From the IMG/VR virus record IMGVR_UViG_3300028392_000059, positions 1-64,000 of that record: a stretch of 64,000 nt of DNA; one strand, written 5' to 3'. The notes below the pieces were generated by a model. The model saw only the letters and a list, made by a program, of their open reading frames with translations. It did not search any database and had not been told where the DNA came from. A program made the position numbers and the translations under genes. Positions 2,032 to 57,736 of the stretch are shown in pieces. Positions within the stretch are counted from its first letter, which is position 1. The number at the start of each line of letters is the position of its first letter. The DNA comes from a virus.

Positions 2032-2066
2032 GGGTATCTCCTCTGAGGTATTCATATAAGATACCC
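2032..2066 (-). promoter_or_regulatory. Inverted repeat around a ribosome binding site
   Basis: GGGTATC and GATACCC can pair across a 21-nt loop in the mRNA. The Shine-Dalgarno GAGGAG runs from the loop into the 3' arm of the stem, two or three bases before the start at 2029. Folding could hide the site and reduce translation after the endolysin gene. No experimental basis. Confidence 0.35.
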
Positions 2067-2083
2067 ATATTTGCGCGTTTATT

Positions 2084-3088: not shown

Positions 3089-3104
3089 TTAATCTAACGG
3101 GTTC
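3089..3104 (-). promoter_or_regulatory. Conserved 16-bp promoter-like motif, copy at lysis unit
   Basis: Minus-strand GAACCCGTTAGATTAA matches the five-copy element GACCCCGTTAAATTAA at 14 of 16 positions. It lies in the 206-bp gene-free gap ahead of the holin, about 90 bases from its start. Further downstream is a leader stretch TAGATGATGT, also found behind the 43658-43673 copy. Read here as a phage-specific promoter; this is inference from position and repetition. Confidence 0.6.
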
Positions 3105-24027: not shown

Positions 24028-25215
24028 TTACTGGTGGAAGATCGGCAGAATACCGAGCGACAGAGCAGACATAGCCTTACGCTGCCAAATGCCACGCACG
24101 TTGGCAATGTTAGCATCAACCATACCAGCGACTGTACGCTTAGTAGTACCATCCATAACCGACATATAGTCAGCATCCGACGGGAAAGCTTCTTCAGGAC
24201 CGGCCCAGCTATAACCAGCAGGAGCGACCACATAACCCCAACGATGCCACACTTCAGTGGTACCACCACCCTGATAAGCACCCGGATTACGGAAGATTTC
24301 AGTATCATCAGGGATAGCAAGCGATTCCATCGCAAGCGCACCCGGAAGCACGATAAACGATGTAAACGAGTTAGCCGTAATATCAACACCAGCACCAATA
24401 TTCAGCTTTGTGATTTCCGCAGAAGTCAAAGCAGTATTAGCACGCGTGTTAATCAGACGAAACTTGCCCTGGAAGATAGTCGAAAACTCGACATTACCAT
24501 CAACAACACGATCTTCATCAACAAGGTTAGCCGAACGCAGCGAAGCCATAATAGCCGGGCTGGTAACAAGGTAAGCATAATCGGGCTCATAGTCTTTATA
24601 AGCCATACCAAAGGCACGAATAAAGGCTTCAGCACGAGCAGCACCCTGCACAGCAGCAGTAGCAGCAATAACAGGAGCAGCACCAAGGTCAACATAGAAA
24701 CCATAACGACGATCAGTAGGATCATTGTAGAAGGTTTGACCACCAAGACCAGCAGAACCACTACCAGTAGCAGCACCGTTAAGCACTTCCGAAACGGCAA
24801 CACCCTTAAGCACAGACAGAATAGCGTTATGCTCATCTTGTGCATGCGTCTCACCAAAGTCACGACCAAGCTTAGCAAGACCATCAACCTGCGTCACAAC
24901 CTGCTGCAGATTAATCTTTTCATAACCATGCGTACGCACAGTCTTAATGTACTGCTGATAGTCAGAACCATAAGTGGTCTTGGTACCAGCGGTAGAGTCA
25001 GTAAGCGAGGCAACGTTAATGGTAGGGTTCAGCGGCTTAAACCAGCGCATCTGACCAATAAACGTTTCAGTAGCAGTATCAATCTGCGGGTTACCACTAA
25101 CAATAGCGGTAGACGACAGCTTCTTTGCATTAGTATAGGCTTCGTCGGAATACGCGCCAAGCGTCTCCTGAAGCACAAAGTTAGTAGCGCCAGCAGGCGA
25201 AACCGGAGTAGGCAT
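24028..25215 (-). CDS. Major capsid protein
   Basis: A 395-aa protein between the scaffold and the head-tail adaptor. It has a long E-loop-like segment, a helical spine (QGAARAEAFIRAFGMAYKDYEP), a P-domain-like region (YLVTSPAIMASLRSANLVDED) and strands near the C-terminus, consistent with the HK97 fold. Codon choice is the most G/C-rich in the window, as expected for the most highly made protein. No cleavage protease gene is evident nearby, so maturation may not need proteolysis. Confidence 0.88.
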   Translation of the reverse strand: MPTPVSPAGATNFVLQETLGAYSDEAYTNAKKLSSTAIVSGNPQIDTATETFIGQMRWFKPLNPTINVASLTDSTAGTKTTYGSDYQQYIKTVRTHGYEKINLQQVVTQVDGLAKLGRDFGETHAQDEHNAILSVLKGVAVSEVLNGAATGSGSAGLGGQTFYNDPTDRRYGFYVDLGAAPVIAATAAVQGAARAEAFIRAFGMAYKDYEPDYAYLVTSPAIMASLRSANLVDEDRVVDGNVEFSTIFQGKFRLINTRANTALTSAEITKLNIGAGVDITANSFTSFIVLPGALAMESLAIPDDTEIFRNPGAYQGGGTTEVWHRWGYVVAPAGYSWAGPEEAFPSDADYMSVMDGTTKRTVAGMVDANIANVRGIWQRKAMSALSLGILPIFHQ

Positions 25216-25228
25216 TTAATTAATTCCC

Positions 25229-25924
25229 TTAGGCACGCTTACGGAGATTTCCTTCCGCAGCAAGTTTCAGAACATCAGCCTGAGACATACCAAAGAGTGA
25301 CTTACCCTTTGTATCTGCAGGTGTTGTAGTTGTTGTAGTTGTTGATGTACCGCCACCAGACGAACGCTTAGCCTTAAGCAAGAATGAATTGTCATCGTGC
25401 TCTAAGAAAGACTTAACGAATGCTGCAATAGTAACACCGCTCCTATGAACCCATTCACCAGCATCATTCTTATGAAGTTCAGATGTAATGTCACGCTTTG
25501 CCATTTCAGCAGCTTTGGCATTTCTGAATTCGTATCCTGCAAGAACATTGCTAACGGCAATATCGCGCGTGTTCACTACATCACGCTCTTCAAGCTCACG
25601 AATCTTAGCTTCCATGTCGGCACGCTCACGTTCGAAAGCTTCTTGCAATTTACCTTCATCTTTAAGACGCTGAGTCTCACGATCACGATCAGCCTTTTCA
25701 CGTTCAGCAAGCTTCTTTGCGGCATCATCACGAGCAGCATAGGCAGCATCAAGCTTACGCTTCATATCTGCTTTAGCTTCGTCAATCGCCTTTTGAACTT
25801 CTGTACGCTTGTCTTCAGCTTCAACGGGAGTACCATCTTCGTTCTTTGTCGGATCGTAGTCAGGATTATCAATCATCTGACCTTCATTTTCAGGATCAGG
25901 GATTTGCTTAGGATTAACTAACAT
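25229..25924 (-). CDS. Capsid scaffolding protein
   Basis: A 231-aa, highly charged, helical protein. A Pro/Asp-rich N-terminus is followed by a long coiled coil (about residues 40-115, with VQKAIDEAKADMKRKLDAA and ERADMEAKIRELEER) and a poly-Thr linker (around 200-207), then a basic C-terminus (LRKRA) that would bind the capsid shell. It immediately precedes the capsid gene. First gene downstream of the motif at 26036-26051. Confidence 0.85.
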   Translation of the reverse strand: MLVNPKQIPDPENEGQMIDNPDYDPTKNEDGTPVEAEDKRTEVQKAIDEAKADMKRKLDAAYAARDDAAKKLAEREKADRDRETQRLKDEGKLQEAFERERADMEAKIRELEERDVVNTRDIAVSNVLAGYEFRNAKAAEMAKRDITSELHKNDAGEWVHRSGVTIAAFVKSFLEHDDNSFLLKAKRSSGGGTSTTTTTTTPADTKGKSLFGMSQADVLKLAAEGNLRKRA

Positions 25925-26035: not shown

Positions 26036-26051
26036 TTAATTTAACGGGGTC
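26036..26051 (-). promoter_or_regulatory. Conserved 16-bp promoter-like motif, copy at capsid/tail unit
   Basis: Minus-strand GACCCCGTTAAATTAA is an exact match to the five-copy element. It lies 5 bases beyond the stop of the polymerase gene, in the 131-bp gap ahead of the scaffold gene. A short inverted repeat follows directly (CCCA ggta TGGG). Proposed promoter of the capsid-tail unit. Confidence 0.7.
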
Positions 26052-26055
26052 TGCA

Positions 26056-29000
26056 TTACCCGACGCCATACCATCCATGATTCTGCTCAAAATCATACGG
26101 AGCGTCTTCTAAGATATCCTCAACAGTCAATATGTCTTCTTTGGTAAGAATACGATCACCAACTTTTGATTTACCGGCGACAGGTATCAGTCCTTTATCA
26201 ATTGCTTCTTGCAAGTAAGCATCGTAACTTGCTTTTGGAAGACCTCTAGCAAGCATTTCATCTAGTGTCATTTTAACAACATTGTTAGTTAGCGTCTCGG
26301 CGTAAATACCACGAAGGGCTGTACGTCCAGGAAGCAAATCTGCAATGTTAGTAAAGAAAGCATCGTGAATAGTGCTCGTAGGAACATTATTACGTTTGCC
26401 CCATAAATGAAACTTCTTTACAATTACAGCGTCATTAGAGTGATTACCATTAACAGCAAATGCAGTACGTGCTTTAGTAGCATCTGCAATGTCGTTAATT
26501 TTACCTTCTTTGTTAAGAACCTCATCCCACCAGCTAGCAGTAGTCTTTTGAGGTACCATCAGAATATTAGTAGTCCAATTACCGTTTGCATCTTTGTAAA
26601 CAAGACGCTCTTCAAACGTCTGCGTGAAATTCTGCTCAATTACTTTACCATCAAAGTTTACCCAAGGAACATTTGTCCATGATTTAGGTAGATCATTCAT
26701 ACTTGTATAAGCAACAGACACTTCACTAGCCTTAGAAACATCTTTAAGTGTAGTGATACCAAGCTTGCTAGCTACATCACCAGCTACACCAAAATCTAAC
26801 TTCCAAAGCTTACGACCTACAGCACGGTCTTCAGGTATGTCAACACCAAGCAGCAAATCAGCAAGTCCGCTGTTAGGGTTCCATTTAGAAAATACCTTCT
26901 GCAATAGCTGTTCTGTAACAGGTGTATTTGCTGGTAAGCCAAGTACTTGTGATAACACTTTAGGCAGACGATAACCTTTACTGCGTTTACCACGAAGTGC
27001 AAGAGTTGCTACTGTCTTCCAACTGATATTAGCATTTGAAGGTTTAGCATTCGTAAGGTACTCTTGTGCCAACCTGCCAAAGAATTTTGTAAAGTCCTTA
27101 AGAATAGGAACCTGTTCAGCAAGATGATCACTCATGATATTAGCTATCTGTTTGAAGTCATCAGGTGTTACAATGCGTTCATACGACTGAGAAAGCTTTT
27201 CAACAATATCTTTTGTAGCAGGATCAAGAAACCAAAGTTGTTCCATTATCTGGTCGCCAGGGTCTTGTCCTTTGTTAAAGATATCTCTAACATCATCACG
27301 TAAAGAACGTAGCAGTTGTTCGCCCTCAGGGTCATATCGTGCTACACGTGCAATACGCGCATCAATTTCGTTGAGAACTTTTTGACGATCTGTAGCAGTA
27401 ACAACAAGTGTCCCTGAGTCTTTACCAAGCACTTTACCAAGCTTACCTTCTACGTTAAGAATACCAGTACGTTCACCAGCACCATAGAAAGTAACCATGT
27501 TTTGGGCTTTAGCAGCTTTCTGCAAGTCTTTAAGACCAAGTCCTAACTTTTCATTAATCTTTTTAAAGCGAGGATCATTATATGTTGATGCTGCAATTTC
27601 ATCGTATAGACGACGTTTTTGATTAGTCAACACAACATTAGAAAGGCCAGCTAATTGCTTATTACGCGTAGTAAGTGCAATAATCTGAGCGCCAGATGAA
27701 CTAGCGTCTTGTTCCATTGCAAGCGCAGTTTCAAACGTATCTAATGTGCCACCAGCAGCAAGATGACGATCTATTTTAGCTGTCTCAATTGCAAAACGAA
27801 AGAACTTACCTAACTCTTCACCATCAACACGCTGTACTGTAGGGTCTTCGAGAATAGCGCGTATATCAGCAGGCTTTGCACTGATCATACGTTCACCAAT
27901 TTCTCGAAGCTTAGGTCTCCAAGTAGCAGCAATCTTACGCCTACCCGTAAATGTAAGACTATCATATGGTCCTTCAAAGTGATCGCTAAGACCACCAAGA
28001 AAGGCACCAATCTGATCTGTCAAAGCGTCATTACCGTCATTACCGAGAATTTTAACTGCTTCTGTATTTAAGAAGGGCCTAAAACTCTCACCCGACTGCG
28101 GGCTTATAAGACCACGGTCATAAACGCGAGCACGATGGTCAATGAACGGATGATTGCTAAATGCAGCATCTTTCTCACGTAACCACTGCATAGATTTAAA
28201 GCGCTCGTAGGCGTCACCACGAGAACTAATGTAATGCTTGTACTCATTCAAATCATCATAAAAAGCTGCTTTACCGCGATCATCTTTGAAGTAAAGAAGC
28301 TTTTGGGTAAAGTCATAAAAGTCCGGATCAACCTTATACTTTGTTTTAGAAGCCCACGTTAGTGCATCAACGAGCTGCTTGTCAACAAACTTAACAGGGA
28401 AATCGCTATATGATGACGTAGAGGTAATTGGGATACGCGTATCATAAAGGCCGAGAACGCCCCTGTCGATGAAATACGTCTTGTAGCCTTCGCGGAATAG
28501 CAGACGATTTTTGTCATTTATAACTCCAACACGTAATCCAAGCTCAACTTGCCTTGTAAGCTTTGAATAGGCAGCAATACGAGGATCAATAACATTTACA
28601 TAATATGATACAGTGTCATAGTACGGACCGAAATATGCACCAGACAGGCGTGAACGCATTCTACGCTTTTGAACACCAAATGTATCAATCTCAAACAGAT
28701 GCCCAGCTTTCTTCTCAAGAATGTTAAGACCCGTTTGATACCATTGTTTGCGATTACCATTAAGATTTGCAAGATTATAAAGATCACGACCAAGTGATAC
28801 AGCAAGCGAGTCTCTATCAGGAGAATCAGCCATACCAAGCTTATGTGCAAATCTAAGGTAAAACTGCTGCATTTGTGAGTCGTCAATCCGACCACGTAAC
28901 CGTAAAGGGATTGTAGTGTCGAACACGCCTTTAAGTTCAGCAGCTATTTGAGGAGCTACTCTATCTTCCCATGCATTGCGTGCTACAATATTCTTAACAA

Positions 29001-30708
29001 AGTTTCTTTCAAGAGTGTCAAGCTGTGTACGACCAAGAACAGGATCAATGTAATCATCGTCTACCAGCTTTTTGAGAACATCTTGCCCTTTACGGATTTG
29101 AGTTTCAATAGCGTCAGAGACATTCATAACATCAAACTTAACTTGTGATTGCGCTACAGCTTTAAAGTTACCCCAAACTTCACGGTTATCTCGATAACGG
29201 CCGATTACAACACGAAGGTTATCAGCAATAACAGCACGCTCATTCATACTAAGCTTTAAAGAAACATCGTCAAGAACTTTATTAATGAAAGCTTTGTCAT
29301 CGTCTTTAAGGCTTACACTCTCATTTACACGACGAACAGCACCTTCAAAGACTTCAGCGTTAGGTTGATACAAACGAACGTCATCATACCTACCTGTAAG
29401 CGGATTGAAACGCAACTGCTCTTCAGTAGGAGGAGATTGGAGTACTCTACGCTTTGTAGCTTTCTTCGTATGCAAGAGTGTACCACGATAGTTTGTCAAT
29501 GATAACGTACCATCAAGCTCACCTGCTTGCAACAAATAATAGTCTACAAGAGTATTACGCATGTTATATAAATCTTCAGGCGTAGCAGCGCCAAGTTGCA
29601 TAGCATCTAGTTTAGCTTTTGCATCGGCAAATTTACGTGTATCACCAGGGATTGTATAGCTATCAGCAGTCAGCTGACGAAGCTCTTTGATACCAATTGT
29701 GTTACCGTTCGGATTGCTAAACTTGTCAACAGTCAGTTTGTTTGTATTCAAAAGATCAACTGACTTGTAATCACCAAGATGACGCAACTGTACATCCGAA
29801 GGTTGACGCTTAAGCCAATCATTATAGCTTTCTCTTAACGGTGTCTGACCGTCATAGTATGCTTGTTGCTTCGGCGTGAGGTTTGCAAGGTTTCTTTTTC
29901 TTACTTCCGCAGCACTTTCCAAAGAACCAATATCAGACCAAGACTTAAACACAGGTATAGTCGTAGAACGACAGTTCCAGTGAGCAGGCGGTAGGTGCTC
30001 CACATCACCAACGGGGTAAATAACGCCGTCCCTATGAGAGCACAGAGGAGTAGTCCTTGAATCGAGAACGGCCACATACTGCCACCCATTAAGGGCTTTC
30101 TCATTAGCTTTGTAAACTTCATGATCCGCCTGTGCATGTACTGATGTGATACTTGTAGTAACCAGCGACTGTGCTTGGAAACGTGTGATTTTGTGAACGT
30201 TACCACGACGTACATCAAGAGCAATATCAGTTGCTGTTTTACCTTCTGAGATACCTTTACGAATTACAGCTTCAATACGTTGCTTTTCAAGAACAGACAT
30301 ACCGGCCCAACTTTGTGACAATGTCTTATCATTATACAAAGGACGTTCAAGCACAACTTCTTCAGCAACACGACGAGTAGGTCTTTGTGTGCGCCAAATC
30401 TTACCCATTACAGATTCCATGTTTTGATAAGCAAATGATGCTTGATCAGCAAACAAATCTAGTAATGAACGACGGTGAGTAGATTGTAATTCGGTATATG
30501 TATCTACGAGTTCTTTATCAATTGCTTCTCGTAGTGTTTCAAGACCTTTGGCAGATGTATGAGCATCTTGAATGAGCTTGTCAAGTCTAACTGTATGGCC
30601 GTCAATAACTAACGAAACCTTACCTTGTACTCGACGCTCATAAAGACGAATCATCGCCGCTCTATCAACAGCCTTGTCGTAAAGTTGTGTGTTAGCATTA
30701 ACGGCCAC
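26056..30708 (-). CDS. MuF-like minor head protein fused to single-subunit RNA polymerase
   Basis: A 1550-aa protein. Residues about 90-260 resemble the Mu gpF/SPP1 gp7 minor head domain (ITSVHAQADHEVYK, LDSRTTPLCSHRDG, LPPAHWNCRSTTIPV). The C-terminal half carries the T7-type polymerase motifs: D857-x-R-A-R861 (T7 DWRGR), motif A D1001-A-S-S-S-G-A-Q (T7 D537), motif B K1067 with Y1075-G1076 (the same 8-residue gap as T7 K631/Y639), and motif C H1448-D1449 (T7 D812). The B-C distance is longer than in T7 and nearer to N4 virion RNA polymerase. The gene lies among head genes, upstream of the scaffold, so packaging and injection are likely. It ends 5 bp before a promoter-like motif. Function of residues 260-840 is unknown. 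Confidence 0.9.
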   Translation of the reverse strand: MAVNANTQLYDKAVDRAAMIRLYERRVQGKVSLVIDGHTVRLDKLIQDAHTSAKGLETLREAIDKELVDTYTELQSTHRRSLLDLFADQASFAYQNMESVMGKIWRTQRPTRRVAEEVVLERPLYNDKTLSQSWAGMSVLEKQRIEAVIRKGISEGKTATDIALDVRRGNVHKITRFQAQSLVTTSITSVHAQADHEVYKANEKALNGWQYVAVLDSRTTPLCSHRDGVIYPVGDVEHLPPAHWNCRSTTIPVFKSWSDIGSLESAAEVRKRNLANLTPKQQAYYDGQTPLRESYNDWLKRQPSDVQLRHLGDYKSVDLLNTNKLTVDKFSNPNGNTIGIKELRQLTADSYTIPGDTRKFADAKAKLDAMQLGAATPEDLYNMRNTLVDYYLLQAGELDGTLSLTNYRGTLLHTKKATKRRVLQSPPTEEQLRFNPLTGRYDDVRLYQPNAEVFEGAVRRVNESVSLKDDDKAFINKVLDDVSLKLSMNERAVIADNLRVVIGRYRDNREVWGNFKAVAQSQVKFDVMNVSDAIETQIRKGQDVLKKLVDDDYIDPVLGRTQLDTLERNFVKNIVARNAWEDRVAPQIAAELKGVFDTTIPLRLRGRIDDSQMQQFYLRFAHKLGMADSPDRDSLAVSLGRDLYNLANLNGNRKQWYQTGLNILEKKAGHLFEIDTFGVQKRRMRSRLSGAYFGPYYDTVSYYVNVIDPRIAAYSKLTRQVELGLRVGVINDKNRLLFREGYKTYFIDRGVLGLYDTRIPITSTSSYSDFPVKFVDKQLVDALTWASKTKYKVDPDFYDFTQKLLYFKDDRGKAAFYDDLNEYKHYISSRGDAYERFKSMQWLREKDAAFSNHPFIDHRARVYDRGLISPQSGESFRPFLNTEAVKILGNDGNDALTDQIGAFLGGLSDHFEGPYDSLTFTGRRKIAATWRPKLREIGERMISAKPADIRAILEDPTVQRVDGEELGKFFRFAIETAKIDRHLAAGGTLDTFETALAMEQDASSSGAQIIALTTRNKQLAGLSNVVLTNQKRRLYDEIAASTYNDPRFKKINEKLGLGLKDLQKAAKAQNMVTFYGAGERTGILNVEGKLGKVLGKDSGTLVVTATDRQKVLNEIDARIARVARYDPEGEQLLRSLRDDVRDIFNKGQDPGDQIMEQLWFLDPATKDIVEKLSQSYERIVTPDDFKQIANIMSDHLAEQVPILKDFTKFFGRLAQEYLTNAKPSNANISWKTVATLALRGKRSKGYRLPKVLSQVLGLPANTPVTEQLLQKVFSKWNPNSGLADLLLGVDIPEDRAVGRKLWKLDFGVAGDVASKLGITTLKDVSKASEVSVAYTSMNDLPKSWTNVPWVNFDGKVIEQNFTQTFEERLVYKDANGNWTTNILMVPQKTTASWWDEVLNKEGKINDIADATKARTAFAVNGNHSNDAVIVKKFHLWGKRNNVPTSTIHDAFFTNIADLLPGRTALRGIYAETLTNNVVKMTLDEMLARGLPKASYDAYLQEAIDKGLIPVAGKSKVGDRILTKEDILTVEDILEDAPYDFEQNHGWYGVG

Positions 30709-30712
30709 AGTT

Positions 30713-30988
30713 TTATCCTTTTAGCTTATCACGAATAACTAAGTAAAGCCAGATAATGTTACCTATTAAGAGAACAATACCGGCACTTAGTGCGAACCAA
30801 TAGTGTAAATCAGCAAAGAAGAAAATATTCCAAACGCCCCAAGCTATGTAAAAGCCTGTCATGGGCCAAGAAATACCCTTTACTTCGCGATCTTTGATGT
30901 ATTGAAATACATTCATCCAAGCGATAATTGCTCCGACACCCTCAAAGAACATTACAATTAAGTCATTGTTTAACACAATACTTTCCAT
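30713..30988 (-). CDS. Small membrane protein, PQ-loop/SemiSWEET-like
   Basis: A 91-aa protein with three hydrophobic segments (about 10-28, 44-58, 62-86). The layout NVFQYIKDREVKGISWPMTGFY...GNIIWLYLVI recalls half-transporters of the SemiSWEET/PQ-loop type, three helices with a 'KG-S/SW--' turn. The conserved PQ pair is not clear. It lies between the metallophosphoesterase and the polymerase gene and overlaps the former by 26 bases; a later start (30952) is possible. Function unknown. Confidence 0.65.
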   Translation of the reverse strand: MESIVLNNDLIVMFFEGVGAIIAWMNVFQYIKDREVKGISWPMTGFYIAWGVWNIFFFADLHYWFALSAGIVLLIGNIIWLYLVIRDKLKG

Positions 30989-32642
30989 TTATAATGTTGA
31001 TAGTTAAGCTCTGATTGTTATCAAAGAGAATAACATGAGAGTTAGTCCAATTGGTACCTGGTGATGTTACATAGAACTGCGTCCTAGGTGTACTCGTTCC
31101 TGCACGTTTTACAGTACCCCAAGTGGTAGCAGAGTGGTTATGACCTAATACACAAGGCATACCAACTTTTCTAAATTCTTTATTTGATCGAGTAGGAACA
31201 CCCTTAGGCCCAAGATCACCATGCATATTAAGCAAGTGTCCGGCAACAATATGGTTCTCAGTGCGATCAAGTGCTTTAAAGCGATCGATGTTTTGAGAAT
31301 TTAAGTATAGAGCTACAGGATCGCTAGTAGCAGCATAAACTTTAACAGGATTACGCTCTTTAATGTCAGCAACAACCATGCTAAAGAGCGTGGAGCCAAT
31401 TTCTAAATTAGCATCATCTTTAGTCCATCGCATCGTATCAATATATTCATTGACATATTCAATGTGATTAGATGCCACAACAAAGATTTCAGCGTCAGTA
31501 CGTTCTTTCATCCAATTGATTTCAGCAACAGCCGACTTCAATTCTGTATCAAGGCTGTCATAACCAAGTGGTGCTTTCCAAGCGCGTCTAGTAGCTTGTT
31601 TAATTTCCCATTTAGACACGCTGTCACAATCTACAAAATCATGTAAATATACACGTTCTGGGTTAATGGTGGGAATAAGTTGATTAAAGGTAACATCACG
31701 AACAACAGGATCAGTTTTACCTGTATGCCAGTCACCCAGAACAATAGCTTTAATAGCGTTAGTGTGTGGTTTAATTACAGTCTCACCACTATAATAGAAT
31801 GAGCCACCGCTACGATGATCTAGATCATAACAGCCATTATTTTTGTCAGCAAACAAATGATAATATTGTGTAAAACCATCACCATCGCAGTTCAGTACTA
31901 CAGCACCATACACATGATTGTGCATAGCAACAGCACCAGTGCGATCTTGTTGTCCAAGCTTGTCAAGTGTATATGTGGGATGTGTAACAGCACATGATGT
32001 CATAATAGCTTTAGGATAGCAATCAACAATCATTTGATGTTGTAATTCTGCAGCGGGTGCCGCAAAGATTTGATGTGTATTACCACCAAGTTCACACAAA
32101 GAGTCTGTAAGAAAGCGTTCTAACGTTGGACGCAAGCGTTCGGTGTTGAGATTAAAGCTGCCATTACACACAAGCATGTCGTAAAAGAGAATTTTACCCT
32201 TAAGACGATTTGGAAAAAGTTGTGTATATTTACCATCAATAAACTTAACAGGACCGTATTTGATTGGTAATACTACTAACACAGCATTTTGATGTTTGCA
32301 ATATGTTTCAAGTGTAGTAAGCCAATCATTGTTCAACGAGCCACCAAATTGAGCAGCAGTAACAACAATTTTCTTAGCGTTACGAACAAGCTTATCACTA
32401 ACCTTAAAAGCATCTAATTGACGTAAAGCACGTTGTGGTACGGGAATACCAACACCATCTGCTCTACGCCAGATCAGCTCAGGCAGCTTGTTCTTATCCT
32501 TTATTTTATTATATTCTTTTACAAGCTTGAGGATGTCTTCTTCAGGACAATCCAAAGCACGAGCAATATCATGATAGCTTGTAAACGATACAGCATCATT
32601 CCAAACCTTAACGAAAGCTTTTGCTTGATCAAGCTTCTTCAT
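30963..32642 (-). CDS. Metallophosphoesterase-type protein, T5 A1-like
   Basis: A 559-aa protein. The C-terminal half shows calcineurin-like metallophosphoesterase motifs in order: LGDWHTGKTD, then a degenerate HDFVDCD, VASNHIEYV (in place of GNHE), GHLLNMHGD and LGHNHS. The first part has a helix-turn-helix-like start (HDIARALDCPEEDILKLV) and a strand-rich domain. The arrangement resembles phage T5 A1, a pre-early DNase/DNA-transfer protein, but this one lies in the head operon. Start at 32642 is chosen for its GAGAAG and a small overlap with the previous gene. Confidence 0.7.
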   Translation of the reverse strand: MKKLDQAKAFVKVWNDAVSFTSYHDIARALDCPEEDILKLVKEYNKIKDKNKLPELIWRRADGVGIPVPQRALRQLDAFKVSDKLVRNAKKIVVTAAQFGGSLNNDWLTTLETYCKHQNAVLVVLPIKYGPVKFIDGKYTQLFPNRLKGKILFYDMLVCNGSFNLNTERLRPTLERFLTDSLCELGGNTHQIFAAPAAELQHQMIVDCYPKAIMTSCAVTHPTYTLDKLGQQDRTGAVAMHNHVYGAVVLNCDGDGFTQYYHLFADKNNGCYDLDHRSGGSFYYSGETVIKPHTNAIKAIVLGDWHTGKTDPVVRDVTFNQLIPTINPERVYLHDFVDCDSVSKWEIKQATRRAWKAPLGYDSLDTELKSAVAEINWMKERTDAEIFVVASNHIEYVNEYIDTMRWTKDDANLEIGSTLFSMVVADIKERNPVKVYAATSDPVALYLNSQNIDRFKALDRTENHIVAGHLLNMHGDLGPKGVPTRSNKEFRKVGMPCVLGHNHSATTWGTVKRAGTSTPRTQFYVTSPGTNWTNSHVILFDNNQSLTINIINGKYCVKQ

Positions 32643-32868
32643 AAGTCTTCTCAAAAATGTCAGGCTTACACGGATAGAATTCACCATTAACACCACGAAT
32701 GATGTAATCATAGAGCTTTGCTGTCATTACACCTTTAAGTGTGATAATCTGCAAACCACCACCAGGTGTATACTTAATATTATTTCCAGCAAAATCGCCT
32801 AACGCGTGTAGATTCATTCCTGTCCATTGAACAGCTTGAATCTCAACTGGTAGTTTCCGGTACCTCAT
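32629..32868 (-). CDS. Conserved phage protein (PGDYIIRGV-type, 79 aa)
   Basis: A small protein ending DYIIRGVNGEFYPCKPDIFEKTYEEA, a signature common in hypothetical phage proteins ('gD-iIrGv-GEfYPCKpdiFe-tYe'). The N-terminus is MRYRKLPVEIQAVQW. The biochemical role of the family is not known. Here it sits between a metallopeptidase and a metallophosphoesterase. Confidence 0.75.
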   Translation of the reverse strand: MRYRKLPVEIQAVQWTGMNLHALGDFAGNNIKYTPGGGLQIITLKGVMTAKLYDYIIRGVNGEFYPCKPDIFEKTYEEA

Positions 32869-33253
32869 TCTTTTTCTTTCTGACGCGTGTCACTTTAAGA
32901 CTAAGTGCGTCCATTGTAAACTCAACTAAATAATCAAGCAAATACGCATGTGCTTCTCTACCGGGCTCATACTCACCAACGTCTTCATGTATCATTTGTG
33001 TAACATGAAGGCATTCATGTGCAATCACAGAAGCAGCGTTATCAACCATATCAGGAGGAAAACGCATTACAATACACTGACCTTTAGGGCTATCAAAGTT
33101 CCATGTAGATGCGTAGCCCTGAGCCATGTCTGTTTGACGAGCATCTTTAAAGCCAACGGCTTCAAGGCCTGCATACATGGCCTCAGGGTTATCACATACA
33201 CCAACCATTGTATTATAGGGGACCGCTTGGATCCACCTAATTTTATCTAGCAT
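32843..33253 (-). CDS. Zincin-type metallopeptidase (HExxH)
   Basis: A 136-aa protein with H79-E-C-L-H83 followed by E100 in PGREAHAYLLDYLV, the zinc and catalytic residues of a gluzincin-type metallopeptidase. Proteins of this kind are often encoded beside phage portal genes. It starts where the portal gene stops (base 33253 shared). Substrate unknown; head-protein processing is one possibility. Confidence 0.75.
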   Translation of the reverse strand: MLDKIRWIQAVPYNTMVGVCDNPEAMYAGLEAVGFKDARQTDMAQGYASTWNFDSPKGQCIVMRFPPDMVDNAASVIAHECLHVTQMIHEDVGEYEPGREAHAYLLDYLVEFTMDALSLKVTRVRKKKNEVPETTS

Positions 33254-34902
33254 TATTGCTTACCTTTAAGCTTTGTATTCATTTGGTTAGCAAAATCAGA
33301 CTGTTTCTGATTAAATTGGTCTTTTGGTGTAATAATAGACTCATCTTTGCTAATTTCTATCTGTCCTTCATCATCATCATAATCGGGAGGTAACAGATCA
33401 TTTTGCTTAAGAATAAGAAGCCAGATAGTACGCGGAATAAGACCCTGTTGGTACCATTCAGTAGCTAAGCGAAGCCAATCTGCACCATGTGGCATAGGAT
33501 TGAAATCACTAGATAGCTCAAAATCAATATCAGCGGCCTTAAGCTCAATATCATAATACCAGTTAAGCATGAAGCAAATAACTTGCCGCATAGTATTACT
33601 GACTTTAAGATTTAGAGAACCAAGTTGAGCAGTTTGAGCAGCATTACGTATTTCAAGGGCTACACCTGATTGATCACCATGCTCAGGAGCAAGCATACGT
33701 ACACCAAGCTTTGCAATTTCTTCATAACCTGAAGCAATAGCCTTTTCCATGTCTTGAAGAGCGTCTGTAGGCGTCTTAAGAACATCAGCTTTGTCTTCAG
33801 GGTTAGGAAGCAAAATCCAAGAGCCTAGACCACCACTGACAATCTGGTCAAACTTTGCATCGTCCATAGATGAACAAATAACAGGTGTATAAGTAGCGGC
33901 ACCATACATAAGGTGATTACGACGAGAGATCTTATTGTAAAGCGCAATCTCTTTATCAATAATAGGAGTAAGTAGAGGAATCGTACCATCTACACTACCA
34001 TTCAAAGGCCACGCAGGAATAACCATAACAGGCTTATCATTAATGATAACAGGAATTGTGTCAATCAACTTAAACACAGGACGCTTAGCGTTGTTGACAA
34101 TTGTATGTCCACCCTGCACACCAACAGCTTCACGAGAGTCTTCAAGCTCAAATACACGAACTTGATATTTACCGTCAGGTGTTAGCTCATGTACCCACAC
34201 TGTTTCAACGTACTTAGGGTGAAACTCGTAGATATCATCATCGTATCGCTGTTGATACCCTTTTACAATGACGCGATCAAGAACAGTACGCCCATTAGGA
34301 TCAGTGCGTGTGCGAGTGTTGATAATGTTCTCAGCTCGATGAAGAACCGGATATGGTTTAATAGCTTTACGATCTTCAATTGACATTTCCTCATCAATGC
34401 GAGGATAATCTACAAAGATCCATGCTCGACTTGTTTGTACTTCTTCCCATAGTGCTGCGTCAAGAAAAGCAGACATTGCACTATCGTCCTTGCCGAACTC
34501 ATGCATAAGCCACTTTGCAGCATCTTTTTCAACATCATCAGGAAGCTTTAGTGTTGGCTGCTTACGAAGAAGGCCACCTACTAGCGTCTTGCTAAATTGT
34601 GCAGTAATACCAGGAAGTTCAGCTTCAGCCTTGTAAAAGTTATATTGTAACTGCGACATAGAAGGTGAGAAGGGAATGAGCAAGTTTGTAAAGTTAACAG
34701 TATCAATTATACTATCGAAGTCCTTCACAAACTGCTCACCATTACACACTGCGCGACTCTTAAGCCATACGTATACGAGTGAACGATACGCATCAGATGG
34801 ATCAGCTACAGTCTTTGTTTGATCAGCAGCCGAAGTCTGAACGACAGATGACTTAACAGAAAATCCAGCTGACTTTAACGAATTGAAAGTAGCCTCATCC
34901 AT
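33253..34902 (-). CDS. Portal protein (DUF4055-like)
   Basis: A 549-aa portal protein forming the DNA gate of the head. Features include a long helical core, LPGITAQFSKTLVGGLLRKQPTLKLP and GWLRLATEWYQQGLIPRTIW-like segments, and a charged C-terminal tail; these match DUF4055 portals. It follows the terminase and fiber genes and precedes the MuF-type gene, which is the expected partner: MuF proteins sit at the portal. Confidence 0.85.
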   Translation of the reverse strand: MDEATFNSLKSAGFSVKSSVVQTSAADQTKTVADPSDAYRSLVYVWLKSRAVCNGEQFVKDFDSIIDTVNFTNLLIPFSPSMSQLQYNFYKAEAELPGITAQFSKTLVGGLLRKQPTLKLPDDVEKDAAKWLMHEFGKDDSAMSAFLDAALWEEVQTSRAWIFVDYPRIDEEMSIEDRKAIKPYPVLHRAENIINTRTRTDPNGRTVLDRVIVKGYQQRYDDDIYEFHPKYVETVWVHELTPDGKYQVRVFELEDSREAVGVQGGHTIVNNAKRPVFKLIDTIPVIINDKPVMVIPAWPLNGSVDGTIPLLTPIIDKEIALYNKISRRNHLMYGAATYTPVICSSMDDAKFDQIVSGGLGSWILLPNPEDKADVLKTPTDALQDMEKAIASGYEEIAKLGVRMLAPEHGDQSGVALEIRNAAQTAQLGSLNLKVSNTMRQVICFMLNWYYDIELKAADIDFELSSDFNPMPHGADWLRLATEWYQQGLIPRTIWLLILKQNDLLPPDYDDDEGQIEISKDESIITPKDQFNQKQSDFANQMNTKLKGKQ

Positions 34903-43446: not shown

Positions 43447-43462
43447 TTAAGTTAACGGTGTC
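43447..43462 (-). promoter_or_regulatory. Promoter-like motif, copy 2 ahead of packaging operon
   Basis: Minus-strand GACACCGTTAACTTAA, two mismatches to the consensus. About 65 bp from the first start codon at 43381. The flanks match the other copy at 43658 (GTTGGT before, TGA after). Confidence 0.6.
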
Positions 43463-43657: not shown

Positions 43658-43673
43658 TTAATTTAACGGGGTC
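43658..43673 (-). promoter_or_regulatory. Promoter-like motif, copy 1 ahead of packaging operon
   Basis: Minus-strand GACCCCGTTAAATTAA, exact consensus. The flank TGTGCACAAATGTTGGTA resembles that of the copy at 43447. Lies about 60 bp after the T-run of the terminator. Confidence 0.65.
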
Positions 43674-47549: not shown

Positions 47550-47767
47550 CAGCTTTTACAATCACAAACAACACATTGAAGATTAATTTCAATGACATTG
47601 ACAGCAGAGTCACGATCAAACATCATATTCTTTACATCTTCAAGTGTACAATCACTGAAATTTTCTTCAAGAGCTACATTGATTGCTTCAACTTCGTTTT
47701 GTGCTTTGACCTCTTTAAGCTTTAATTCATTATCAAAGAAGTCAATATATGCTACGATGTACCTCAT
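47549..47767 (-). CDS. Hypothetical protein (72 aa)
   Basis: A small α/β protein (MRYIVAYIDFFDNELKLKEV...) resembling phage proteins with a 'vkAqn-veAi--al' segment, ending CVVCDCKS with three Cys. Start overlaps the previous stop (ATGA). Function unknown. Confidence 0.72.
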   Translation of the reverse strand: MRYIVAYIDFFDNELKLKEVKAQNEVEAINVALEENFSDCTLEDVKNMMFDRDSAVNVIEINLQCVVCDCKS

Positions 47768-49731
47768 CCGAATACTACCTCAAATGGACGCTTGTCAACA
47801 ACAATTATCGCCGAGTCCTTTTTAGTGGAAGAGAATCCAAGGCCACTAAGCTGGCTCTCTGAAGGAGGACACTTGGTTTTGTCAGCAAGTACTTCAAACA
47901 CCTTGCGATGAGCATCAAGATCGCCACGAAGAAATTCATTATAAATTCCCCGCGCGGCATCGTCTGTCTTGCATCCTTCCAGAAGGAAAAACCAATGCTT
48001 ATTCCCAACAGCATTATCATCCCAATAATTAGGGCTAAGCATGATCGAATTAATATTGACCAGATTTCCACTAGTAAGTCCCCACTTAGTTTGAGCAATA
48101 CCCTCGTTTGTGACATCAGGTGCATTCTTAAGGCTTGTAATTGCATTGTTCTTTACATCGAACGTTGCAATTTCTTGATAACCACGTACAGGTTTGTTAT
48201 ACACAAACTGCTGCTTAGTGCCAATACCCTCAATATCAACAGTACAACCAACGTCAATAGATTCACGAGGTGTGAAGTTATGAACAATGATTTTATATCT
48301 ACCATCAACCATCTTGGTGAAATGAATGTTTTCAACAGCGTCTCGACGATCACCACTAATGTTCATATCAACGTCAAGAATACCATATCGGCCATATTTT
48401 CTCTGATAACTAATACGATCGACCGGTGTTTCAATGTGGATATCAAGGTCGTCTGTGTTGAACCAAGCAAGAGATACACGGAACAGTGCATCAACATTGC
48501 CACCAGCAGCTTTAACGCGAGCCTTTACAGAGTCAGCAACGTTACCGTCGTATGACCAAGCAAAGTTGTTATTCCACTTAAACAAAGGTGCACCCGTCTC
48601 ACCATCTGCTGTAGTGATTGTTACGAAGTTACCAAAATGTTGGGGCTCAACAAGCAGCTGAAGTTCTTTCTTTCCAGGAAGAACGTGCTCAAAGAAATCA
48701 CTAACACTAACCTTTGTAGGTGATTCAATTTTAATATGATTAGCCGGTTTGATCTGATCTGCAAGAAGATCATGAATACCACCCTTCATATTACCAACCA
48801 CACGGTTAGAAACATAAAGAACATTATTCACTGAAACATCAGAAATGTTTGCAAGGCGACGCTTAATATTTACGCCAAGCTTTTCAATCTTTTCTGCCGC
48901 TTCATTGATCATCTTTGTAGTAACAAGAGACTTTGGCCGCTTATAATTTGTAGGCGCAACCATTGCTTCGTACTTACTAACAGCAACTGCAAGATCGGTA
49001 CCCTCGGAGATAGCGACAAGCAGCGTACCAATACTGGTACCACGAATATGCGCAATGTTATTATACTTTTCAAGATTTGCCCACACCCACATTGTCTTTT
49101 GAAATGTTGCGTTGTAAGCAATAAGAGCTTCTCGGAGAGACCTTAACGATCGAATATTTTCCATACCACGATAAATATCGTTATTATTTGTTAGTTCAAT
49201 AACGGTATTAACAGTCTCAACGCTAATTTCATTCAGCGCACGTTGAAAGACATTAAAAGAAGTATTAATGCTACCACGATCAGCATCAGGTTTAACAGAA
49301 TAATGCTTACGACCGACAGCGCCATGGAAGTGATTCCACTTACGCGAAGTCTCAGTGTCGTAATTATATTCAACACCGTATTGGCGCTCCTTAGTACGAT
49401 ACACAGAGACAATAGGTGCTTGACGCACAATGTCGCGCATTGTTTCAGCAACAACATTGTACGGGTACGGCAGTGTGTTGTAATTATCCCAGACAGTAAT
49501 AATTACGTCGCCGTCAATAGAAACAACAGTGCCAAGATTGCGAATGAAATTCTTACAACAGTTACAGTCGTGTTCGGTGCGTTGACGAAATACTTCATTT
49601 GTTCCCTCCGGAAAAGCTGCAAGATACGATGCAAAGATGTCTTGAACGTCTACTTTATAGAGTTCTTGTGAAGACATCTGCGTGTACTGATCATGAACGC
49701 TCTTTGAGAATGTAGGAAAATCAGCCGACAT
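47764..49731 (-). CDS. Conserved large phage protein with YfaP-like domain (655 aa)
   Basis: A large protein, the biggest of the accessory block. The N-terminus has HDCNCCKNFIRNLG. Around residues 405-530 the pattern LFRVSLAWFNTDDLDIHIETP ... GILDVDMNI ... RDAVENIHFT ... GRYKIIVHNF matches the YfaP/DUF2135 β-domain (L-W-ntnDLDlHv ... G-LDvD-N ... ENi--------G-Y-v-v--f). The rest is unrecognised. Encoded among early accessory genes rather than virion genes. Confidence 0.7.
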   Translation of the reverse strand: MSADFPTFSKSVHDQYTQMSSQELYKVDVQDIFASYLAAFPEGTNEVFRQRTEHDCNCCKNFIRNLGTVVSIDGDVIITVWDNYNTLPYPYNVVAETMRDIVRQAPIVSVYRTKERQYGVEYNYDTETSRKWNHFHGAVGRKHYSVKPDADRGSINTSFNVFQRALNEISVETVNTVIELTNNNDIYRGMENIRSLRSLREALIAYNATFQKTMWVWANLEKYNNIAHIRGTSIGTLLVAISEGTDLAVAVSKYEAMVAPTNYKRPKSLVTTKMINEAAEKIEKLGVNIKRRLANISDVSVNNVLYVSNRVVGNMKGGIHDLLADQIKPANHIKIESPTKVSVSDFFEHVLPGKKELQLLVEPQHFGNFVTITTADGETGAPLFKWNNNFAWSYDGNVADSVKARVKAAGGNVDALFRVSLAWFNTDDLDIHIETPVDRISYQRKYGRYGILDVDMNISGDRRDAVENIHFTKMVDGRYKIIVHNFTPRESIDVGCTVDIEGIGTKQQFVYNKPVRGYQEIATFDVKNNAITSLKNAPDVTNEGIAQTKWGLTSGNLVNINSIMLSPNYWDDNAVGNKHWFFLLEGCKTDDAARGIYNEFLRGDLDAHRKVFEVLADKTKCPPSESQLSGLGFSSTKKDSAIIVVDKRPFEVVFG

Positions 49732-57450: not shown

Positions 57451-57736
57451 GTTAATGTATTCCTCTAAACGATAAAAAATATGCACCCTACAATGTGGGC
57501 ATATCATAATGAGATAAGTGAATTATCCCGAAGTCCCTATCCCACAAGTGGGTTAATTTAACGGGGTCCGGGAGGGTTGGCCACTTGGCTCGTAATCGTT
57601 CAGACAAAAGAAAGCGAGTTGCCCAGACTTATATAGCTCGCACGCTTGTAACAGATCTTTAGTATTTCGTAGCACAGCTGACGGTATATGTGTGCTCAGT
57701 GTCTAGAATACTTTAAGAAAGTTACGGGCACTTAGG
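57451..57736 (-). promoter_or_regulatory. Gene-free gap ahead of the accessory block
   Basis: About 290 bp without a supported gene, containing the promoter-like motif at 57553-57568, a short hairpin directly after it (CCCAC TT GTGGG), and an AT-rich leader before the 191-aa gene. Upstream of the motif, a TATATAAG stretch could also serve host polymerase. Confidence 0.6.
57553..57568 (-). promoter_or_regulatory. Conserved 16-bp promoter-like motif, copy at accessory block
   Basis: Minus-strand GACCCCGTTAAATTAA, exact consensus. About 100 bp from the ATG at 57450. As at 26036, CCCA follows and opens a small inverted repeat. Proposed promoter for genes 57.45-43.81 kb. Confidence 0.7.

Follow-up and report, generated by a model that had tools for sequence, protein, structure and literature searches.

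The window analysed here, 64,000 nt long, is the first 64 kb of a viral record of 75,364 bp, and one gene in its head operon encodes a MuF-type head protein joined in frame to a predicted single-subunit RNA polymerase (Table 1). The first-pass annotation had reported a single 1550-aa frame at this place, and the ORF is indeed intact, with zero internal stops along its whole length and a GTG start that agrees with relatives whose proteins open with M-x-x-NANTxxYDK. A split gene or an assembly artefact was ruled out, since 82 of the relative loci that we fetched form one long frame that includes the fusion, as does, in addition to these, the collinear protein of phage DSS3_VP1.

The genes run in the order terminase, portal, an ORF of the PHROG class 'DNA transfer protein', fusion, scaffold and major head protein. 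The fusion gene thus lies in a head operon beside the portal, as had been proposed, with the DNA-transfer-protein ORF and the portal on one side and the scaffold and major head protein on the other. In DSS3_VP1 the order portal, fusion, scaffold-like protein and coat protein is retained; the 'DNA transfer protein' ORF is missing from the corresponding site in this phage and in EBPR siphovirus 1. Elsewhere in the window (47764-49731, minus strand) lies a gene for a 655-aa protein of no known function (PHROG_1735, 1e-210; 46% identical in DSS3_VP1), in which a Pfam search found no domain.

Table 1. Coordinates of the features discussed, given as window positions unless stated otherwise.
Feature	Position	Strand	Basis or remark
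MuF-RNA polymerase fusion gene	26056..30708	(-)	1550 aa, GTG start, intron-free in this genome
MuF/SPP1 gp7-type head-morphogenesis part, aa 1-626 (by profile)	28831..30708	(-)	PHROG_241 'head morphogenesis', 9.2e-63
Pfam Phage_Mu_F core, aa 143-251	29956..30282	(-)	PF04233, 1.8e-13; 51.7 bits against a cut-off of 29.6
Predicted single-subunit RNA polymerase part, aa 641-1550	26056..28788	(-)	AF2, Foldseek, PF00940
DxRxR motif, D857-R861 (T7 D421-R425)	28126..28140	(-)	48-sequence alignment, T7 comparison
Motif A catalytic Asp, D1001 (T7 D537)	27706..27708	(-)	48-sequence alignment, T7 comparison
Motif B, K1067-Y1075 (T7 K631-Y639)	27484..27510	(-)	48-sequence alignment, T7 comparison; intron site 1072/1073 in relatives
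Motif C, H1448-D1449 (T7 H811-D812)	26362..26367	(-)	48-sequence alignment, T7 comparison
Portal protein	33253..34902	(-)	PHROG_145, 1.2e-48
PHROG 'DNA transfer protein', ORF between portal and fusion gene	30963..32711	(-)	PHROG_1745, 4.7e-66
Head scaffolding protein	25229..25924	(-)	PHROG_206, 6e-11
Major head protein	24028..25215	(-)	PHROG_247, 4.7e-20
Putative RNAP2-type promoter motif CCCCGTTAAATTA	26037..26049	(-)	Directly past the fusion stop, ahead of scaffold and major head protein
Putative RNAP2-type promoter motif ACCCGTTAGATTA	3090..3102	(-)	Motif search
Putative RNAP2-type promoter motif	43659..43671	(-)	Gap upstream of terminase, with a weaker copy ending at 43460
Putative RNAP2-type promoter motif	57554..57566	(-)	Motif search
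Putative early promoter motif CGCAAATATGGGTATCTTATATG, which the fusion polymerase may recognise	2053..2075	(-)	Another copy lies beyond the window, at record 74339-74361

By its sequence profiles, the region of residues 1-626 is a complete head protein of the MuF/SPP1 gp7 type. The PHROG_241 match spans this whole region, so that an entire head protein precedes the polymerase, and both marks of the MuF family were found, namely a Phage_Mu_F score above the curated cut-off and a portal gene upstream. The earlier assignment of a Mu gpF/SPP1 gp7-like domain to about residues 90-260 was therefore right as to the domain, which both PF04233 and PHROG_241 recover, and wrong as to its extent, which is much larger. 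Structural comparison did not add to this: the AF2 model of the N-terminal half was of moderate quality (pTM 0.48) and had no PDB match at E<=0.001, so the identity of the head half rests on sequence profiles.

For residues 641-1550 the models confidently give a T7-fold single-subunit RNA polymerase, for which RNA synthesis is predicted. The AF2 model of this part, built from a 48-sequence input, reached a pLDDT of 81 and a pTM of 0.81, and in a Foldseek search of the PDB its top match was T7 RNA polymerase (E 5.5e-15, probability 1.00, about 800-930 columns), with mitochondrial RNA polymerases also among the leading matches, although the query-normalised TM-scores of these T7-fold matches were no higher than about 0.40-0.49. 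Among predicted viral proteins the best match (2.6e-51) was a 1463-residue protein, the length of the DSS3_VP1 fusion, followed by phage RNA polymerases and N4-type virion RNA polymerases at about 1e-17 to 1e-11. Since phmmer with the single fusion protein found no match in the PDB, sequence identity to solved RNA polymerases being low, profile and structure searches were needed. PF00940 (RNA_pol) scored beyond its gathering cut-off in the fusion protein and reached E<=0.001 in every one of the 48 aligned members, which also all matched PHROG RNA polymerase families, and hhalign of the fusion polymerase profile gave E 6e-6 against T7 and 1e-3 against the second polymerase of the same phage (RNAP2, see below). 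The proposed comparison of this half with T7 thus recovered the expected fold by structure and by profile, and the full set of catalytic landmarks claimed for it stood up, the seven residues D857, R861, D1001, K1067, Y1075, H1448 and D1449 aligning to their T7 counterparts (Table 1) and being invariant in 48 sequences with identities down to 36%.

The spacing of the motifs had been used to place the enzyme relative to N4. The K-to-Y spacing does equal that of T7, at 8 residues, but N4 (K1667/Y1675) has the same. The two A-to-C figures, 448 residues here and 275 in T7, were likewise correct; their reading as nearer to N4 was not, the distance being about 318 in the collinear DSS3_VP1 protein and reaching 661 where relatives carry extra domains. 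For N4 we computed 392, from D559 and D951, which we take to be its catalytic residues. We therefore reject A-to-C spacing as a sign of kinship with N4, the extra length being a variable, poorly modelled insert. Membership of an N4-type family was also unsupported, as hhalign of the fusion profile against a single N4 gp50 polymerase-domain sequence gave nothing useful (E 0.18); the PHROG_2166 family, 'N4-like RNA polymerase', was weakly matched by 11 of the 48 members (best 3e-5). At the sites where the fusion polymerase carries T7-like DxRxR and HD, N4 gp50 has T-R-V-G-R and F-D, and so lacks the Asp of the first and the His of the second. Judged by sequence, the fusion polymerase is nearer to T7 than to N4 at its motifs, because it keeps the T7-like DxRxR and HD and its profile aligns with T7 but not usefully with the single N4 sequence.

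Relatives of the fusion are widespread, with at least 577 stretches encoding them in a profile scan of IMG/VR. Among sequenced phages, tblastn found full-length relatives in EBPR siphovirus 1 (56% identity) and in DSS3_VP1 and DSS3_PM1 (32%), and the fusion is therefore not a chance ORF. The last two are cultured roseophages (Naomviridae, Noahvirus), in which the protein is annotated merely as 'minor head protein-like'; across the three phages the orthologues are labelled in this way or as 'head protein'. No host could be found via prophages, the only matches in genome contigs being two contigs of one gammaproteobacterial MAG. DSS3 phages use dU-DNA (PMC12697855), which was considered as a reason for a virion polymerase and is unsupported here, because a gene of the cytidine-deaminase family, present in the dU-DNA phage DSS3_VP1, is absent from 11 of the 13 records tested, including this one. 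One relative (G010, 65195-65527) encodes a cytidine/dCMP-deaminase-family protein resembling that of DSS3_VP1.

Several relatives have an interrupted fusion gene, and several of the introns lie near catalytic motifs, for example at 1072/1073 within motif B. Rfam group I introns break the gene in L016, L042, L044 and L264 (the last on the 104-kb contig G034), and on one contig it is in about seven pieces with five Rfam introns. In EBPR siphovirus 1 (L058) the gene is broken by an HNH ORF, and gp47-gp49 probably belong to a single gene that is split at 1072/1073, a place where Rfam made no intron call. Several genomes also have an interrupted RNAP2 gene, with the break often near aa 520. In-frame insertions occur as well: one domain of about 220 aa, without a match in Pfam, is inserted near aa 1096 in L021 and near aa 985 in L030; the insert in L032, about 100 aa long, is another one. 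Inspection and the lack of an intein family match led us to reject these as inteins and to regard them as extra domains.

The phage encodes a second polymerase. RNAP2, a T7-like RNA polymerase of 746 aa, lies beyond the window (record 70771-73011, minus strand), and it accompanies the fusion in all 18 of the long, near-complete relatives tested, including DSS3_VP1, whose annotated RNA polymerase matches RNAP2.

The lineage has two conserved promoter-like motifs, each of them strand-specific. The early motif, YGCGSAAAN4GGTATCTTATATGA, occurs in 18 of 19 genomes, with 36 sites that fit the search core exactly and are all on the coding strand. Most of its sites lie no more than about 8 kb upstream of RNAP2, and a few copies lie elsewhere. 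The 98 non-redundant copies share a 24-nt consensus with fixed spacing, in which the positions left free in the search are 85-97% conserved. When contigs above 50 kb were fetched by this motif alone, 19 of 20 held the fusion and 20 of 20 held RNAP2. It does not resemble the hairpin promoters of N4. The late motif, MCCCGTTAAATTAA, precedes the later operons, including a site just past the fusion gene; searched as MCCCGTTAAATTA in the 19 genomes, it gave 82 matches on the coding strand against one on the opposite strand and two in a reversed-pattern control. In this genome it is found on the coding strand only, at the sites of Table 1 and at 70123 of the record, and in 35 of 48 relatives the fusion stop is followed by a copy with up to 3 mismatches, at a distance of 4-11 nt in nearly all cases. 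In DSS3_VP1, whose fusion is 32% identical, both motifs appear in apparently diverged form, the late one as repeated TAGGKKNCGTTAAAGARGGGGA-like sites and the early one, aligned by eye, as GTGAGAAAACTAAGGCATCTATAATGA ahead of the first genes past the tail module. From position only, we infer that the fusion polymerase would use the early motif and RNAP2 the late one; as a single lineage carries the two motifs together with the two genes, their joint occurrence does not show which polymerase goes with which motif.

The early region also holds a 27-nt H-type pseudoknot (S1-CT-S2-N-S1'-NTAAAC-S2'), at record 73715-73741 and thus beyond the window, with counterparts in the early region of relatives L155, L156, L159, L173, L190, L195, L211, L221, L232 and L238. 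A search on its invariant letters alone, over 5.8 Mb of strand, returned 19 distinct copies, all of which form both helices, with covariation. Matches in whole genomes were on the coding strand in 12 of 12 cases, often with a T-rich stretch after them, and the strict pattern was present in 6 of 19 genomes. An Rfam search gave no match at E<=0.1. The element may be a terminator or an RNA regulator; the region of the virion RNA polymerase of phage P23-45 holds an unexplained 26-nt terminator motif, with which it may be compared.

Our main reading, to which we assign a probability of about 0.78, is that the fusion is a head-delivered virion RNA polymerase that transcribes the pre-early genes, including that for RNAP2, and that RNAP2 then transcribes the rest. 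The gene context and the second phage polymerase are consistent with a packaged early polymerase. The MuF part would bind the portal inside the procapsid, and a few copies of the fusion would be packaged and would exit with the DNA, after which the polymerase part, presumably active, would initiate at the early motif and transcribe the pre-early genes; RNAP2 would then transcribe the replication and late operons, the fusion gene included, from the MCCCGTTAAATTAA promoters. For the MuF protein gp7 of SPP1, the portal brings few copies into the procapsid, and delivery to the host has been proposed for MuF toxin fusions (PMC6316719). A broader reading, for which we consider the chances even, is that of a self-contained early system. 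In it, a head-delivered T7-fold polymerase would act from a 24-nt promoter class of its own, with the 27-nt pseudoknot of some relatives as a possible terminator or RNA regulator, and would be succeeded by a second polymerase, which is T7-like and would have a different class of promoter.

An alternative, which we consider unlikely, is that packaging of the polymerase does occur, with the early motif serving as a promoter for the host RNA polymerase, so that the host starts RNAP2 and the virion enzyme pulls in the DNA, boosts later genes or acts in some similar way. The end of the motif looks like a sigma-70 -10 element and might overlap with one (some copies have TATGAT; DSS3_VP1 has TATAATGA, with TATAAT as the overlapping element). 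Against a host promoter, 24 nt are conserved at fixed spacing, including what would be the spacer, GGTATC, and a TTGACA-like -35 element is absent. A sigma-70 scan of the region found such sites no more often than in shuffled sequence and none coinciding with the motif, both copies in this genome being absent from its matches, so that the early motif as a sigma-70 promoter is unsupported. The motif is, moreover, common to relatives whose fusions are about 53-72% identical and has a diverged form in DSS3_VP1.

We regard it as quite improbable that the polymerase is made and acts late in the infected cell, with the MuF part serving only to hold it at assembling heads or on packaged DNA and the host starting RNAP2. 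The gene does sit in the late head operon, with a late promoter motif directly behind it, yet MuF proteins of the SPP1 gp7 type are put inside the procapsid by the portal (PMC6316719), and an enzyme used only late would need no fusion to a head protein, RNAP2 already being present at that stage. Least credible of all is that the polymerase part lacks catalysis and survives as a structural or DNA-binding relic: its low sequence identity to any solved RNA polymerase and the Gln that it carries at the position of T7 R627 would suit a relic, but invariance of all seven catalytic landmarks down to 36% identity would not.

The head-delivered polymerase has its closest parallel in the Thermus phage P23-45, whose virion RNA polymerase gp96, fused to the tape measure protein, transcribes pre-early genes including that of the non-virion RNA polymerase gp64, each enzyme having been assigned its own promoter motif by ChIP-seq and transcript mapping (PMC10770324). 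Both are long-tailed-phage systems in which a virion polymerase is fused to a structural protein, a second, non-virion polymerase is among the pre-early genes and there are two promoter motifs, one of them upstream of the pre-early genes. They differ in that P23-45 uses two-barrel polymerases, which are akin to the cellular RNA polymerase, and a tape-measure carrier, whereas here the fold is that of T7 and the carrier is MuF; the P23-45 relay was also established by experiment, whereas ours is deduced from sequence and models. N4 gp50 (3500 aa, Schitoviridae) is alike in having a T7-superfamily polymerase within a larger protein and a separate phage RNA polymerase for the next gene class, and unlike in that its described carrier parts are not MuF (PMC5512222). 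The T7 RNA polymerase family (Autographiviridae) and RNAP2 share the fold and catalytic motifs, but they stand alone, are not virion enzymes and measure about 750-880 aa, and the fusion domain resembles them only remotely.

On the carrier side, MuF polymorphic toxins of temperate phages (PMC5576092) and SPP1 gp7 (PMC6316719) have the same N-terminal MuF part and portal-adjacent gene, the toxins also with C-terminal cargo; here the C-terminal cargo is a polymerase in place of a toxin domain. In the main text of the survey of 1515 MuF proteins the word 'polymerase' is absent (PMC5576092). The first-pass annotation knew of no described equivalent, and our search of the open-access literature, which is mostly without subscription papers and hence not proof of absence, likewise found no MuF-polymerase fusion, the nearest case being the tape-measure-fused enzyme of P23-45 (PMC10770324). 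A virion RNA polymerase fused to another protein is thus already known, and what seems new is the combination of a MuF head carrier with a T7-fold polymerase.

Virion RNA polymerases release a phage from host transcription at entry, and few have been described, in N4-like and crAss-like phages and in P23-45; giant phages are also among the cases. In the large environmental lineage described here the carrier of the enzyme is a head protein, not a tail protein or a giant ejection protein, which suggests that MuF proteins may deliver enzymes beyond toxins. This is testable now, as two cultured phages, DSS3_VP1 and DSS3_PM1, carry the fusion unrecognised. Provided that it is active, a polymerase of such compact form, with a strongly conserved promoter of its own, would also be a potential tool.
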